Assembly: GCA_036001465.1 (NCBI GenBank)
Contig: DASYUH010000045.1
Location: forward strand, 1-43,951
DNA from: Candidatus Polarisedimenticolia bacterium
GTDB lineage: Bacteria > Acidobacteriota > Polarisedimenticolia > Gp22-AA2
Direction: 5' to 3'
DNA: 43,951 nucleotides
Part shown: positions 4,215 through 36,315 of the stretch, piece after piece
Numbering within the stretch: the stretch's first letter is position 1
How the letters are laid out: every line of letters starts with the position of its first letter
Program-made: the position numbers and the translations under genes
Notes under the pieces: generated by a model
Seen by the model: only the letters and a program-made list of their open reading frames with translations
Told to the model about the DNA's origin: nothing
Database searches by the model: none

Positions 4215-4724
4215 CTACGGGAGTCGGGGCTGAAACGGGAGCGGCGGCAGATCGCGCAGGACCCGGGGGAGCGGGCCGGAGCTTTCCCGCAGGTCCATGG
4301 CGCGATTGGCGAGCGCGTCGGCCGCGCGGTTCTGCTCGCGGCGCACATGCTCGACGACGACCGACGGCAGGCCGCTCATCAGGCGGCGGGCGGCGCCGTG
4401 CAGGACCTGGAGGCCCGGGTGCTTCACGCGGTACTCCCCCTTGATCTGCCGCACCAGGAGCTCCGAGTCGGACAGGATGCGCAGCGACGGGGGGGCGGCG
4501 GCGACGGCGTATTCGAGGAGGGCCAGGAGGGCGGCATACTCCGCCGTGTTGTTGGTGGCGACCCCGAGGTAGCCGTAGAGATCCGCCACCGGTCGGCCCT
4601 CCCCGTCCTGGATGCTGACGCCGTAGCCGGCCGGCCCGGGGTTTCCGCGCGCGCCGCCGTCGATGTGGGCGACCAGGCCTGGAGGCGCGGGCTTCGACCG
4701 GCGCCGGGCCGGGCGCGGCGTCAC
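4215..4724 (-). CDS. rnhA: Ribonuclease HI family protein
   Basis: RNase HI cleaves the RNA strand of RNA-DNA hybrids. The four acidic active-site positions are visible: Asp in AHIDGGARGNPGPAG, Glu in NNTAEYAAL, Asp in ILSDSELLVRQI and Asp in RREQNRAADALAN. I prefer GTG 4724 as start, because it overlaps the stop of the zinc-ribbon gene as GTGA. That gives 169 residues and implies translational coupling. The frame is open further upstream to an ATG at 4766. It has the short N-terminal extension and compact domain of RNase HI proteins often found beside C4 zinc-ribbon genes. The final 25 residues are Pro-rich and unconserved. Confidence 0.92.
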   Translation of the reverse strand: MTPRPARRRSKPAPPGLVAHIDGGARGNPGPAGYGVSIQDGEGRPVADLYGYLGVATNNTAEYAALLALLEYAVAAAPPSLRILSDSELLVRQIKGEYRVKHPGLQVLHGAARRLMSGLPSVVVEHVRREQNRAADALANRAMDLRESSGPLPRVLRDLPPLPFQPRLP

Positions 4725-31382: not shown

Positions 31383-32447
31383 ATGCAGCACCGCAACAAA
31401 CAGGTCCTTTACCTCGCCGCGCTGGTCAGCGCCGCGACCGTCTTCGCCTGCGCCGCCGCCACGGGCGATACCGCCAAGGAAGGCAAGGGGAAGAAGGGCG
31501 CCGCGAGCGCCGCCTCGGATTCCGCCGCGGCCGTCATCGGCGACAAGACGATCACCATGGCGGAGCTCGACGCCAAGGCGGCCGGAGCCCTGGTGAAGGT
31601 CCGGCAGGACGAGTACGAGGCCCGGAGGCAGGTCCTGGAGAGCCTGATCAACGACGAGATCATGGCGAAGGAGGCCGCCGCCAAGAGCAAGACCAAGGAG
31701 GAGCTGACGAAGGCGGAGATCACCGACAAGGTGCCCGAGCCGGCGCAGGCCGACGTGGACGCCTTCTACGAGCAGAACAAGGCCCGCTTCGGCGCCCAGA
31801 CGAAGGAGCAGCTGGCGCCGCAGATCACCGCCATGCTCAAGAACCAGAAGATGGCGGACACCCAGCGGGCGTATTACAAGTCGCTGCGCGACAAGTACGG
31901 GGTGAAGACGATGCTCGAGCCGCCCCGCGTCCAGGTGGCGCTGGACGACGACCCCGTGAAGGGACCGGCCAAGGCCCCGATCACCATCGTCGAGTTCTCC
32001 GATTACCAGTGCCCGTACTGCAGCCGCGCCGAGACCACGGTCACCGAGGTCCTGAAGAAGTACGGCGACAAGATCCGGCTGGTGTACCGCGACTACCCGC
32101 TGTCGTTCCATCAGAACGCCAACGTCGCCGCCCAGGCCTCGGAGTGCGCCGAGGAGCAGGGGAAGTTCTGGGAGATGCACGGCGCCATGTTCGCCAACCA
32201 GTCGAAGCTGGCGGCGACCGACCTGGTCGAGACCGCGGCGACGATCGGCCTGGAGAAGGACAAGTTCAAGGCCTGCCTCGACAGCGGCAAGTACAAGGAC
32301 GAAGTGCAGAAGGACTTCGAGGACGGCCAGAAGGCCGGGGTGACCGGGACCCCCACCTTCTTCATCAACGGCATCCCGATGGTCGGCGCGCGCGACGTCA
32401 ACTCGTTCGCGGAGATCATCGACACCGAGCTCGAGCGCAGCAAGTAG
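31383..32447 (+). CDS. DsbA-like thiol oxidoreductase lipoprotein with N-terminal chaperone-like region
   Basis: The 354-residue product has a lipoprotein signal (TVFAC). A SurA/PpiC-like helical region follows at about residues 50-165 (ITMAELDAKAAG, VLESLINDEIMAKEA, VDAFYEQNKARFG). The DsbA/thioredoxin domain at about 180-354 has PITIVEFSDYQCPYCSRAE with the C210-P-Y-C213 site and the cis-proline region VTGTPTFFINGIPM. It should form or isomerise disulphides in exported proteins. The strong ribosome site GAAGGAGGCGTC is identical to that before the phosphoesterase gene at 23942. It follows the large metalloprotease, which may be among its clients. Confidence 0.9.
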   Translation: MQHRNKQVLYLAALVSAATVFACAAATGDTAKEGKGKKGAASAASDSAAAVIGDKTITMAELDAKAAGALVKVRQDEYEARRQVLESLINDEIMAKEAAAKSKTKEELTKAEITDKVPEPAQADVDAFYEQNKARFGAQTKEQLAPQITAMLKNQKMADTQRAYYKSLRDKYGVKTMLEPPRVQVALDDDPVKGPAKAPITIVEFSDYQCPYCSRAETTVTEVLKKYGDKIRLVYRDYPLSFHQNANVAAQASECAEEQGKFWEMHGAMFANQSKLAATDLVETAATIGLEKDKFKACLDSGKYKDEVQKDFEDGQKAGVTGTPTFFINGIPMVGARDVNSFAEIIDTELERSK

Positions 32448-32466
32448 GCGCGCAGCCAGGTCCAGT

Positions 32467-32505
32467 GCCGGCCCCCCGTGCCGCTCCGGCGCGCCGGGGG
32501 CCGGC
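32467..32505 (+). terminator. GC-rich hairpin after the DsbA-like gene
   Basis: GCCGGCCCCC (32467-32476) pairs perfectly with GGGGGCCGGC (32496-32505) around a 19-base loop, 20 bases after the stop. The following bases are pyrimidine-rich but not a T-run, so termination efficiency is uncertain. Confidence 0.45.
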
Positions 32506-32797
32506 CTCTCCCCCGACTCCACCCTGCCGCGATTTCCCGACACCTCCCCACGGTGATGCACGCCCCTTGGACACTCCCCTGAACCCAGCCTGACACAGGG
32601 ACTTGAAGCGCGATGATGCGGGCAGGCCTGGCTCGACGCCCGGCCGCGTGTCCGGAGCATGGTCAGACGCAGCCGCCGCGCCGGCGCACTGACGCCGCGC
32701 GTGATGCGCTGACGGAAGGTCGTGATCCTCTGCAGCCTCTTGCCGGGGCAGGGCTTCCGCCCTCGAAGCTGACCCGTCCTGCCGCCTGTCGGACCCC
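32506..32797. other. Gene-free stretch before the sigma-54 promoter
   Basis: I find no convincing coding region or RNA in these 292 bases. Activator binding sites for the sigma-54 promoter would be expected here, but no clear tandem repeat or palindrome stands out by eye. Confidence 0.4.
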
Positions 32798-32813
32798 TGG
32801 CACTTCGCTTGCT
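32798..32813 (+). promoter_or_regulatory. Sigma-54 (-24/-12) promoter
   Basis: TGGCAC (32798-32803), five bases and TTGCT (32809-32813) match the sigma-54 consensus TGGCACG-N4-TTGCW except that T replaces the G after TGGCAC. The GG and GC doublets are 12 bases apart, as required. Transcription would begin near 32823, directly in front of the riboswitch aptamer. It would need an enhancer-binding ATPase, which is not encoded in the window. Confidence 0.6.
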
Positions 32814-32830
32814 CTTGCCAAGGGTCGTTT

Positions 32831-32906
32831 GACAGCGCCAAACCACTCGTGAGGGTGGGACGGAAAGCCGACGGGTCTCCTGAGAGAGACGGCCGGGTTG
32901 CCAGCG
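32831..32906 (+). promoter_or_regulatory. GEMM-I type (cyclic-di-GMP-I) riboswitch aptamer
   Basis: AGCGCCAAACC (32834-32844), hairpin ACTC-GTGA-GGGT (32845-32856, a GNRA tetraloop), GGGACGGAAAGCC (32857-32869), ACGGGTCTC...GAGAC (32871-32890) and GGCCGGGTTGCC (32891-32902) reproduce the order and core sequences of the GEMM-I aptamer. The guanine equivalent to G20 (32837) and cytosine equivalent to C92 (32894), which contact the ligand, are kept. The pair usually G21-C46 is C-G here (32838 and 32863), an apparent compensatory change. The 3' strand GGGTT can alternatively pair with AACCC next to the ribosome site (about 32930), suggesting translational control of the protease gene at 32946. 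Confidence 0.75.
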
Positions 32907-32945
32907 GGATGGCCGCAGCCAGCTCGTTGAACCCTTGGAGGCCCG

Positions 32946-35549
32946 ATGACGCTGAGCCACGCGGATCGCCGTCCCCCCGAAGCTGCCCAGCCCCCCATCC
33001 GGCGTTCCGCTCTCCACTTCATCTGCCGGTCGCTCCTCGTCCTGTTCGTGGTTCTCGGCGTGTCCCCGGCCTCCGCGGCCGCCGCTCCCAGCCAGAGATC
33101 CAAAGTGGCTCCCGATCTGGTGGAGGAGGCCCGGAAAGGCTCGCCGTCCCGGACGGTCCGCCTGGTGGCCACGCTGGAAGGGGCCGATGCGGATGGCCTC
33201 GCCCGCGAGATCGCCAGGCTGGGCGGCAGGGTCCGCGGGAACTTCCGTCATGCCGGAGCCATGGCATTCGAGGCGCCGCTCGACGCGGTCGAGGCGCTGG
33301 CGGCCACGCCGGGCGTCCGCTACATCGCGCCCGACCGCGAGGTGAGCGCGCTCGCCAGCCAGGTTGGGATGACGACCGGAGCCGATCTCGTCTACCCGGG
33401 GATGCTCTCCCTGGCAGGCGATGCGGAGACGGTCGTCGCGTCGCCGGTCGTGGTCGACGCCCGCAGCAGCGCGGCCGGTCCGGGCACCAACGGCACGACC
33501 CTCGCCTGGCCCCACACGATCGGCTCGGGGCCGGACCGCTTCCTGGTCGTCGGCGTGTCGCTGCGCGACGGGAACACTTCGGTGACCGGCGTCACTTACG
33601 GCGGGGCGGCGCTGACGCGCATCGGCTTCCAGAACGCGGGCGGGAGCCAGAACCGCACCGAGATGTGGGAGCTGCCCGCCCCCGCGACGGGCACCGCCGA
33701 CGTCGTCGTCACCCTGTCGGCGGCCAAGAAGCTGGTGGGCGGCGCCGTATCCTTCTTCCACGTCGATCCGACCGCGCCTCATGGTCCTTTCGTGTCCGCG
33801 ATCGGATCCACCAAGACGGCCTCGGTGACCGTCCCGAGCGGCAGGGGACAGCTGGTCGTCGATACCGTCAGCACCAACGGCGACGCGAATTCCCTGACCG
33901 AAAGCGCGGAGCAGGCCGCGCAGTGGGACACCTTCAGCGGCAAGGGTGACGCCGGGAACGCCCGTGGCGGCGGGAGCCTCGAGACCGGAGCATCCTACGT
34001 CACGATGTCCTGGGCGCTCGGCGCGGGGAAGCCATGGTCGGCGGGCGCCGTGTCCCTCAAGCCGGCGGGGGCGCCGGCGTTCGGAGGCTTCGACGGAACG
34101 GGCGTCACCGTGGCCGTGATCGACTCCGGCATCGCGCCCCAGCACCAGGACCTGATCCGTGGCGGCACGACCGAGTCGCGGGTCGTCCTGGGCGTCGATT
34201 TCACGGGCAAGGGAAAGACCGACGACCTCTTCGGCCACGGCACGCACGTGGCCGGCATCATCGCCGGGGACGGCGGCGCCTCGCACGCGTTCGGGCGCGA
34301 CTACATGGGGATCGCTCCCGGCGCCACCCTGGTCAATCTCAGGGTGCTGGACGATTTCGGTCACGGCTACGTCAGCAGCATCGTCGCGGCCATCGACCGC
34401 GCCATCGCCGTCCGGACCCTCTACAACATCCGGGTCATCAACCTGTCCCTGGCGGCGCCGCCGATCGACTCCTATGTCGACGATCCGATCTGCCAGGCGG
34501 TGGCCCGCGCCACGAGCGCCGGGATCGTGGTCGTGGCCTCGGCGGGGAACTTCGGCCAGGACCCGACGTCGGGCGAGGAGGCGTACGGCAGCATCACCTC
34601 GCCGGGGAACTCGCCCGCGGCCATCACCGTCGGCGCGGTCGACGGCCGTGGCACCGCCCCCCGCTCGGATGACCAGATCGCCCGCTTCTCCTCTCGCGGG
34701 CCGACCCTCTCCCATTCGATCGATCCCGTGACGGGCGCCGCCGTTCCTGACCTGCTGGCGAAGCCCGATCTGGTCGCCCCGGGCGGCCGCATGGTGTCGC
34801 TGGAACGGGACGACAATTACCTGGTCAAGACCTATAAGGAGCTGGACGTCGACGGCTCCAAGCCGAATGCCCGCTACATGATGCTGAGCGGCACCTCGAT
34901 GTCGGCGGCCGTGGTCTCCGGGGCCGCCGCCCTGATGCTGCAGGCCAACCCGTCCCTGACGCCCAACATGGTCAAGGCGATCCTCATGTACTCGGCGCAG
35001 ATGATGGACGGGCCGGACCTGTTCGAGCAGGGCGCCGGGCTTCTGAACATCGAAGGGGCGGTGCGGCTGGCGGCCACTCTGCGCCAGGACGCAGGCACCC
35101 TGCCGGTCGGATCGACGCTCGCCGACCTGCCCCTGCCGCAGCCCGTGAGCACCATCTCGGGGGAAACGGTCGCGTGGAGCCAGGGGCTCATCTGGGGATT
35201 CGGCGGGCTCCAGGGCATGGCCATGCTCACCACCCGGCAGGAGGCGTACTCGCAGTCGCTGATCTGGGGCCTCGGACGTCTCGACGCATGGGGCGCCGGC
35301 GTCACGTACTACGACGGGCTCTACTCGCAGAACTATGTCGCCTACGGCCAGGACAACGAGTGGTGCGGCGTCACCTGGGATTCGGGGACGAGCACCTCCT
35401 CCGGCCTGATCTGGACCCGCCCGATGGACGCCTCCGGCCCCATCTGGACCAACCGGGTGATCTCGAGCGACTTCTTCGACCCGTCCTCCTCGAGCCTCAT
35501 CTGGGGTATCAACAATTACGATGCCGGTCTCATCTGGGGGGGGTTCTGA
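32946..35549 (+). CDS. Secreted subtilisin-family (S8) protease with inserted beta domain and LIWG-repeat tail
   Basis: The 867-residue protein has a signal peptide (hydrophobic residues about 24-46). An I9-type propeptide follows (RTVRLVATLEGADADGLARE to VRYIAPDREV, about 65-135). Residues about 155-375 are an inserted beta-rich domain (VTGVTYGGAALTRIGFQN, RTEMWELPAPATGTADVVVT). The catalytic domain has Asp393 (AVIDSGI), His431 (GHGTHVAG) and Ser651 (SGTSMSA), with VASAGN between. The tail from about 745 carries six copies of a (S/G)-x-I-W-(G/T) motif, mostly LIWG, ending in GLIWGGF. GGAGG precedes the ATG. The leader contains the GEMM-I aptamer and a sigma-54 promoter. A membrane protein gene follows after one base. 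Confidence 0.93.
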   Translation: MTLSHADRRPPEAAQPPIRRSALHFICRSLLVLFVVLGVSPASAAAAPSQRSKVAPDLVEEARKGSPSRTVRLVATLEGADADGLAREIARLGGRVRGNFRHAGAMAFEAPLDAVEALAATPGVRYIAPDREVSALASQVGMTTGADLVYPGMLSLAGDAETVVASPVVVDARSSAAGPGTNGTTLAWPHTIGSGPDRFLVVGVSLRDGNTSVTGVTYGGAALTRIGFQNAGGSQNRTEMWELPAPATGTADVVVTLSAAKKLVGGAVSFFHVDPTAPHGPFVSAIGSTKTASVTVPSGRGQLVVDTVSTNGDANSLTESAEQAAQWDTFSGKGDAGNARGGGSLETGASYVTMSWALGAGKPWSAGAVSLKPAGAPAFGGFDGTGVTVAVIDSGIAPQHQDLIRGGTTESRVVLGVDFTGKGKTDDLFGHGTHVAGIIAGDGGASHAFGRDYMGIAPGATLVNLRVLDDFGHGYVSSIVAAIDRAIAVRTLYNIRVINLSLAAPPIDSYVDDPICQAVARATSAGIVVVASAGNFGQDPTSGEEAYGSITSPGNSPAAITVGAVDGRGTAPRSDDQIARFSSRGPTLSHSIDPVTGAAVPDLLAKPDLVAPGGRMVSLERDDNYLVKTYKELDVDGSKPNARYMMLSGTSMSAAVVSGAAALMLQANPSLTPNMVKAILMYSAQMMDGPDLFEQGAGLLNIEGAVRLAATLRQDAGTLPVGSTLADLPLPQPVSTISGETVAWSQGLIWGFGGLQGMAMLTTRQEAYSQSLIWGLGRLDAWGAGVTYYDGLYSQNYVAYGQDNEWCGVTWDSGTSTSSGLIWTRPMDASGPIWTNRVISSDFFDPSSSSLIWGINNYDAGLIWGGF

Positions 35550-35550
35550 C

Positions 35551-36315
35551 ATGAACGCTCAGGTGAGCATCCAGCCGGCCACGCCCGCGGCACGCGACAC
35601 CAGGGCGCGCCTGTTCATCGCGGCGGTGGTGGCGGCCGGCGCCGTCGTCCTGGCGGCGAGCCTGCGGCAGATTCTCGCGGCGGGGCTCGACGCGCGGCAC
35701 CTCGCGTGGCTCGGACTCGCGGCCCTGACGATCGGCGTGGGCCGGCTCTCCGTGAGACTCCCGGGGCCGAGCTGCAAGGTCTCGCTCTCGGACGCTTCCA
35801 TCTTCCTCTCGCTCCTGGCCTTCGGTCCGCACCTGGCGACGGTGACGGCGGCGCTCGACGGCTTCGCCGCATCGACACGCAGGAAGGGCGCCTGGCACAA
35901 GGTGGCGTTCAACACGGCCGGCATGGCGATTTCCATGTCGATGTCATCCCGGGTCTTCACCCGACTGGTCCCGCCGAGCGGGCTCTCGGGTCCCAGGCTT
36001 TCCGTCTCCAACCTCGTCGTTCCGATCGTGGCCCTCGTGCTCGTCCAATACCTCGTGAACACGGCTCTCGTGTCGACCGTGATGGCCCTCAAGGATGGCG
36101 TCTCCCCCCTGACGGTCTGGCAGGATGCATCGCCGTGGGCCGGCGCCGCGTATGTCGCGGGCTCGGTGGCGGCCACCCTCGTCTTTCTGATCGTTCGCGA
36201 GCTCGGAGCGCTCTCGGTCCTGGGGGTCCTGCCGTTCCCGGCGATCCTCTATCTCGCCTACCGCGCCTGTCTCAATCGGCTGGTCAGGCTGAAGGGGACC
36301 GCGCCCGCCGCCTAG
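35551..36315 (+). CDS. Stand-alone multi-pass membrane sensor-like domain
   Basis: The 254-residue protein has about seven membrane helices from residue 20 on and no soluble domain. The stretch VRLPGPSCKVSLSDASIFLSLLAFGP...ATVTAALDGFAASTRR is, from memory, the type of N-terminal membrane sensor region that precedes GGDEF or HD-GYP domains in many environmental bacteria. Here the protein simply ends after the last helix (LNRLVRLKGTAPAA). ATG 35551 comes one base after the protease stop, so the two are surely co-translated. It could be a sensor, protease anchor or export helper. Confidence 0.75.
   Translation: MNAQVSIQPATPAARDTRARLFIAAVVAAGAVVLAASLRQILAAGLDARHLAWLGLAALTIGVGRLSVRLPGPSCKVSLSDASIFLSLLAFGPHLATVTAALDGFAASTRRKGAWHKVAFNTAGMAISMSMSSRVFTRLVPPSGLSGPRLSVSNLVVPIVALVLVQYLVNTALVSTVMALKDGVSPLTVWQDASPWAGAAYVAGSVAATLVFLIVRELGALSVLGVLPFPAILYLAYRACLNRLVRLKGTAPAA

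Follow-up and report, generated by a model that had tools for sequence, protein, structure and literature searches.

Described c-di-GMP-I (GEMM-I) riboswitches include the Vibrio cholerae elements Vc1, an ON element for gbpA, and Vc2, in whose numbering the ligand is contacted by G20, A47 and C92 (PMC4744006); Vc2 further has a G45-C22 pair, the joining segment J2-3 (A47-A49), a C44-G83 pair and G14-C93 topping P1 (PMC3764141). In the ZmpI/PPEP-1 and CD2831 circuit of C. difficile, a secreted protease and the surface proteins that it targets are tied to c-di-GMP riboswitches (PMC6366702). The acidobacterial locus described here resembles the V. cholerae elements in its full-length model match, its ligand-contact residues and its interhelical C-G pair, and in lying in the 5'-UTR before a protein predicted to be exported. 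It departs from them in a short P3 lacking the usual UAA-type tetraloop-receptor segment, in a GUGA/GCGA loop in place of GAAA, in a C-G rather than a G-C pair next to the binding site, and in beginning at the predicted +1 of a sigma-54 promoter. With the C. difficile circuit it shares the link of an exported protease to a c-di-GMP riboswitch, although the protease there is a metalloprotease and here a subtilase, C. difficile is Gram-positive and the promoter is different. The promoter, TGGCAC-N5-TTGC with distant paired upstream sites, is like those used by sigma-54 with bacterial enhancer-binding proteins, and differs from the usual ones in having a riboswitch at +1. In the open-access literature we found no published case of a sigma-54 promoter combined with a c-di-GMP-I riboswitch, or of a c-di-GMP-I riboswitch combined with a subtilase; the aptamer class is already known, and the sigma-54/riboswitch/protease wiring is apparently new.

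The stretch of DNA analysed (the window, 43,951 nt) belongs to a genome of 4.58 Mb in 114 contigs (G000) from subdivision 22 of the Acidobacteriota. Scanning the whole window with cmscan returned a full-length match to RF01051 (model positions 1-87, 52.1 bits, E = 1.9e-7; gathering threshold 35 bits), and the sole other Rfam match was a tRNA. An earlier note on this DNA had proposed that a secreted subtilisin-family protease has a GEMM-I riboswitch in its leader, and had staked the proposal on a significant cmscan match; this score and the conserved pairing of aptamer and protease described below bear it out. The core motifs stand in the order it gave: CCAAACC (32838-32844), a P2 capped by the GNRA loop GUGA (32843-32858), GGGACGGAAAGCC, ACGGGTCTC and GCCGGGTTGCC. 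CCAAACC alone is uninformative (four occurrences in the window vs. 2.1 expected), so the covariance-model score is what counts. The aptamer does lie upstream of the protease ATG, across a gap of 40 nt, although its true start is 4 nt earlier than had been claimed.

The equivalents of the ligand contacts in the window (G20 = G32837, A47 = A32864, C92 = C32901) all fit c-di-GMP, and in an alignment of 16 aptamers the same G, A and C were found in all eight that precede proteases. The equivalents of the interhelical C44-G83 pair are C32861 and G32892, both in columns invariant among the 16. The C-G pair adjacent to the binding site, G-C in the model, is a compensated change common to the eight protease-linked aptamers. 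P3 is short and the tetraloop-receptor segment of the model is deleted, though the GUGA loop is present; docking of a GNRA loop into a P3 receptor is common, not universal, and so was not used as a defining criterion. Within the alignment a GAAA loop and a CUAA segment co-occur only in the C21-type aptamers, and a GYGA loop and a short P3 co-occur in the remaining aptamers of the family. The window element is a member of the c-di-GMP-I class, in a short-P3 subgroup without the tetraloop-receptor segment, and its predicted ligand is c-di-GMP.

Features of the riboswitch-protease locus in window coordinates, with a related gene at other loci
Feature	Position	Strand	Evidence or remark
Upstream site 1, TGGACAC, putative enhancer-binding-protein half-site	32568..32574	+	~-255
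Upstream site 2, GTGTCC, inverted relative to site 1	32648..32653	+	~-175
Sigma-54 (-24/-12) promoter, TGGCAC-N5-TTGC	32798..32812	+	exact match; 8 of 8 loci; RpoN in genome
Predicted transcription start	32823..32823	+	from -24/-12 spacing
Aptamer helix P1, 5' strand	32825..32831	+	
c-di-GMP-I (GEMM-I) riboswitch aptamer	32827..32905	+	Rfam RF01051, 52.1 bits; alignment of 16 aptamers; residue numbering from PMC4744006 and PMC3764141
P3 5' strand CGGGUCUCC, in the window also a perfect 9-bp anti-Shine-Dalgarno	32872..32880	+	sequence, folding; full extent window-specific
Pre-Shine-Dalgarno hairpin CAGCGGGaUGGC-cgca-GCCAgCUCGUUG, 5' base = P1 3' strand; putative expression platform	32902..32929	+	-15.3 kcal/mol, z -2.5
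Shine-Dalgarno GGAGG	32937..32941	+	sequence
S8 subtilase, predicted to be secreted, 867 aa: signal peptide, prodomain, extra module (153-380), catalytic domain (384-698), C-terminal SLIWG-type repeats	32946..35549	+	PF00082, E = 2.3e-53
Multi-TM membrane protein, 254 aa; probably shares an operon with the protease	35551..36315	+	starts 2 nt past the protease stop
HD-GYP/GAF/GGDEF gene	L061:2162-4357	-	promoter 4404-4418; also L064:7100, L066:6683, L030:40

We compared riboswitch and protease coordinates in 60 relatives and then read the loci. An aptamer lies ~40-50 nt ahead of the start codon in all eight proteases of the clade with assembled 5' ends, which come from six genomes (the window, G000:C94, G001:C13, G003:C108, G004:C197, G004:C315, G005:C51 and G006:C42); a ninth (G002) was left out, its 5' end being cut off by the contig end. 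The window's genome has four c-di-GMP-I riboswitches in total, and one of the three others is that before the paralogous protease on C94. More distant subtilases had no aptamer at the loci searched. A scan of the wider genome-contig collection that was queried with the window protein alone gave no matches; among 80 loci from that collection, an aptamer was present only at two gp22 loci and three from Burkholderiales. In the Burkholderiales homologues (L126, L137 and L146) the protease is preceded by a strong c-di-GMP-I aptamer (~71 bits); the leader is different and the matching place has no sigma-54 element. At least two phyla have therefore either retained the link between aptamer and subtilase or made it anew, and this recurrence suggests that control of the subtilase family by c-di-GMP is under selection. 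Riboswitches at the subtilases of L113 and L134 were rejected, as the matches were weak and unconfirmed by Rfam.

The subtilase S8 catalytic domain carries the D/H/S triad, and its D/H/N/S motifs (among them DSG, HGTH and GTSM) are intact and conserved; prodomain and catalytic domain are both matched by a solved subtilase. Export is predicted from an N-terminal sequence that reads as a signal peptide followed by the prodomain. The module between prodomain and catalytic domain (33402-34085) occurs in the window protease only, among close relatives, and stretches resembling it are found in other large proteins of the family, such as a 4046-aa ORF at G000:C37. Subtilase homologues at L113, L126 and L137 end in lineage-specific short repeats (SLIWG, VVLSEG, GVITGDG), which suggests a fast-changing tail. 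The probable operon partner matches no Pfam family; homologues lie near the protease in six further loci, and a domain paralogous to it shares a 905-aa ORF with a GGDEF domain. The partner is also found near other subtilases that have no riboswitch; the loci noted for these occurrences and for the paralogous domain are G000:C97:7734-8417, G000:C10:23260 and G000:C30:34967.

Upstream of the aptamer, the sigma-54 element is in place at every one of the eight riboswitch-protease loci, with one CGGCAC and one TGGCAT variant, and the GG of its GG-N10-GC core lies 25-29 nt before the aptamer throughout. RpoN was present in six of six genomes tested. The predicted RNA start (~32823) makes the aptamer the 5' end of the transcript, and the predicted 5'-UTRs measure 121-128 nt at all eight loci. 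Further upstream an inverted pair of sites, 80 bp apart, is in register at seven of the eight when one mismatch per site is allowed; shuffled sequences reached at most two of eight (n = 500), a count that is not a probability because the loci are related. The strict pair stands at this place in G000, G001, G003 and G005, and the sequence between the two sites is by eye largely unalike across loci. It is the combination of the GG-N10-GC core, RpoN in the genome and the paired upstream sites on which we base the sigma-54 assignment. The earlier note, right about the leader riboswitch, had overlooked this promoter with its paired sites, as well as the partner gene in the operon and the conservation across the family. 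An NtrC-type response regulator gene elsewhere in the genome (L187:1539, G000:C92), with its own strict sigma-54 site and TGGACAC at -262, is a candidate activator.

Between aptamer and start codon, GGAGG stands 4-8 nt before the start in seven of the eight leaders, and in most leaders a hairpin precedes the Shine-Dalgarno sequence. An uninterrupted helix begins exactly at the C93 equivalent in five (the window, C94, C197, G001 and G005), so that the base of the hairpin is the 3' strand of P1; G003 has the same hairpin with a one-base bulge. In most leaders the hairpin ends 7-8 nt before the Shine-Dalgarno sequence, and its own sequence varies with the pairing kept; eight leaders do not suffice for a formal covariation test. 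The 5' strand of P1 recurs in the hairpin as its 3' strand (GUUG in C197 and G005, GUCG in C94). Two leaders, G004:C315 and G006, fit neither the hairpin nor the strand exchange cleanly, and in several leaders P1 is weak or has interruptions. The layout is one often used for strand exchange, the likely switch here, with P1 in the ligand-bound state and the hairpin in the free state.

In the window, CGGGUCUCC is also perfectly complementary, over 9 bp, to GGAGGCCCG at the ribosome site, and when the aptamer was forced in folding calculations Shine-Dalgarno accessibility rose from 0.01 to 0.60, which 1% of shuffles equalled. Over all eight leaders the mean change was 0.15, vs. 0.035 ± 0.064 in shuffles, that is, less than 2 sd; opening upon aptamer formation was clear in the window only and weaker in G003 and C94. 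Simple sequestration of the Shine-Dalgarno sequence, not being significant over the eight leaders, was rejected as a family-wide mechanism and kept for the window only. The switch that had been suggested earlier, in which AACCC pairs with GGGTT of the aptamer's 3' strand, did not hold up: both strings exist (32930-32934 and 32895-32899), but the pairing is complete in the window only, and two other pairings fit better: most leaders allow the P1 3' strand to be exchanged, and the window has the CGGGUCUCC/GGAGGCCCG pairing.

We propose that sigma-54 supplies transcription and that c-di-GMP gates translation, probably in the ON direction; judging from sequence, the timing of protease synthesis is probably set by two distinct signals. 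A putative enhancer-binding protein at the -255/-175 pair would turn on transcription of an mRNA for the protease and its membrane partner, and c-di-GMP would then gate translation. In the ligand-free leader the P1 3' strand would be locked in the long hairpin before the Shine-Dalgarno sequence and, in the window, the P3 5' strand would be able to pair with that sequence; upon ligand binding P1 and P3 would form, the hairpin would lose its base and the Shine-Dalgarno region would open, so that high c-di-GMP would turn the protease ON. Computation shows the aptamer with its contact residues, the conservation, the promoter element, the site pair and where the hairpin lies; the ligand, the transcription start, the activator, and both the level and the direction of control are elements that we infer. 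The ~18 GGDEF domains in the genome count in favour of gating by c-di-GMP.

That the ligand is instead 3',3'-cGAMP, as for GEMM-Ib, or another dinucleotide seems very improbable to us. The variant family c-di-GMP-I-GGC (RF03167), which has the same short P3 architecture, is the reported best match for many relatives, and many exceed its threshold, so the subgroup is not a textbook aptamer. But membership in RF03167 takes a gathering score of 59 and G at the A47 position, and we rejected it for the window, which is not reported under that family and has A, not the model's G, at the A47 equivalent. A change of G to A at position 20 gives cGAMP preference, and GEMM-Ib was rejected on finding G there in all eight protease aptamers. 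It is likewise very improbable that the sigma-54-like element is a coincidence and that the gene is read from another promoter, for which there is a sigma-70-like match at 32590-32617. The strict sigma-54 pattern occurs 17 times genome-wide vs. seven for a reversed-pattern control, so single sites are insecure and make weak evidence; positional conservation is strong, however, the element lying at nearly equal distance at eight of eight loci together with a positionally conserved site pair, and the riboswitches of other classes in these genomes had no strict element at that position.

Riboswitches for c-di-GMP of both signs, ON and OFF, are known, and the same aptamer and ligand could turn protease synthesis off if the ligand-free hairpin kept the ribosome site clear and ligand-bound P1 freed the blocking strands. 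We regard this as possible, if rather doubtful: the hairpin alone leaves the Shine-Dalgarno sequence free, and folding over the family does not clearly separate ON from OFF, yet forcing the aptamer lowered Shine-Dalgarno accessibility in no leader, and the 9-bp pairing of the window must break when the aptamer forms. Action on transcription, through Rho-dependent or other termination, in place of translation is unlikely; a stable hairpin does stand between aptamer and start codon, and another aptamer, that of G003:C115 in a relative, has a terminator-like hairpin and a T run behind it, but no intrinsic-terminator-like site was found in 32440-32990, and in none of the eight leaders does a T run follow the hairpin. 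Gating of translation in the ON direction is accordingly the reading that we favour, the direction being a lean and not a result because the family-wide folding effect is below 2 sd.

At the C94-type loci a second strict sigma-54 site lies ~1.1 kb downstream of the protease, before a gene for an HD-GYP/GAF/GGDEF enzyme, and is accompanied by a TGGACAC-like site at ~-245. The enzyme is predicted to make or degrade c-di-GMP, and the same activator may control both this gene and the C94-type protease operon. We tentatively raise, as a possibility that we would not count as probable, an AND gate in which one sigma-54 activator drives the riboswitch-protease operon and, through the neighbouring promoter with its similar site pair, this enzyme; it would in that case determine how much mRNA is supplied and also how much messenger there is to gate translation through P1 strand exchange with the hairpin before the Shine-Dalgarno sequence.

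If the favoured circuit holds, sigma-54 transcription with translation gated by c-di-GMP, an uncultured soil lineage would have a secreted protease under the control of c-di-GMP, and a riboswitch set at +1 of a sigma-54 promoter would be a simple design for merging transcriptional and second-messenger signals. The genome has riboswitches of three classes, each preceding a large protein that appears to be exported; together they sketch what may be an acidobacterial counterpart to the extracellular c-di-GMP programme of C. difficile.

At the C85-type (L059, L062, L065 and L070) and C21-type (L060, L063 and L073) loci, the other two riboswitch classes, the aptamer is followed by a large protein of ~1000-1200 and 1700 aa, apparently secreted. 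C85-type leaders seemingly form a local CCUCC/GGAGG hairpin over the ribosome site. A C85-type paralogue (L190:1479, G000:C99) has a sigma-54 site, behind which a riboswitch was searched for and not found; the riboswitch-bearing C85 gene is its mirror image, without a strict sigma-54 site. In G004 a single C85-type gene is preceded by two c-di-GMP-I aptamers ~400 nt apart (L068:415-494 and 878-958), of which the upstream one is weak (36.6 bits) and perhaps degenerate. The G003:C115 aptamer (L067:3796-3885), with its GC-rich hairpin and T run, is apparently a transcriptional version, and a further c-di-GMP-I aptamer (L077:3891-3969, G029:C4) lies just before a protein with cytochrome-like CxxCH motifs.
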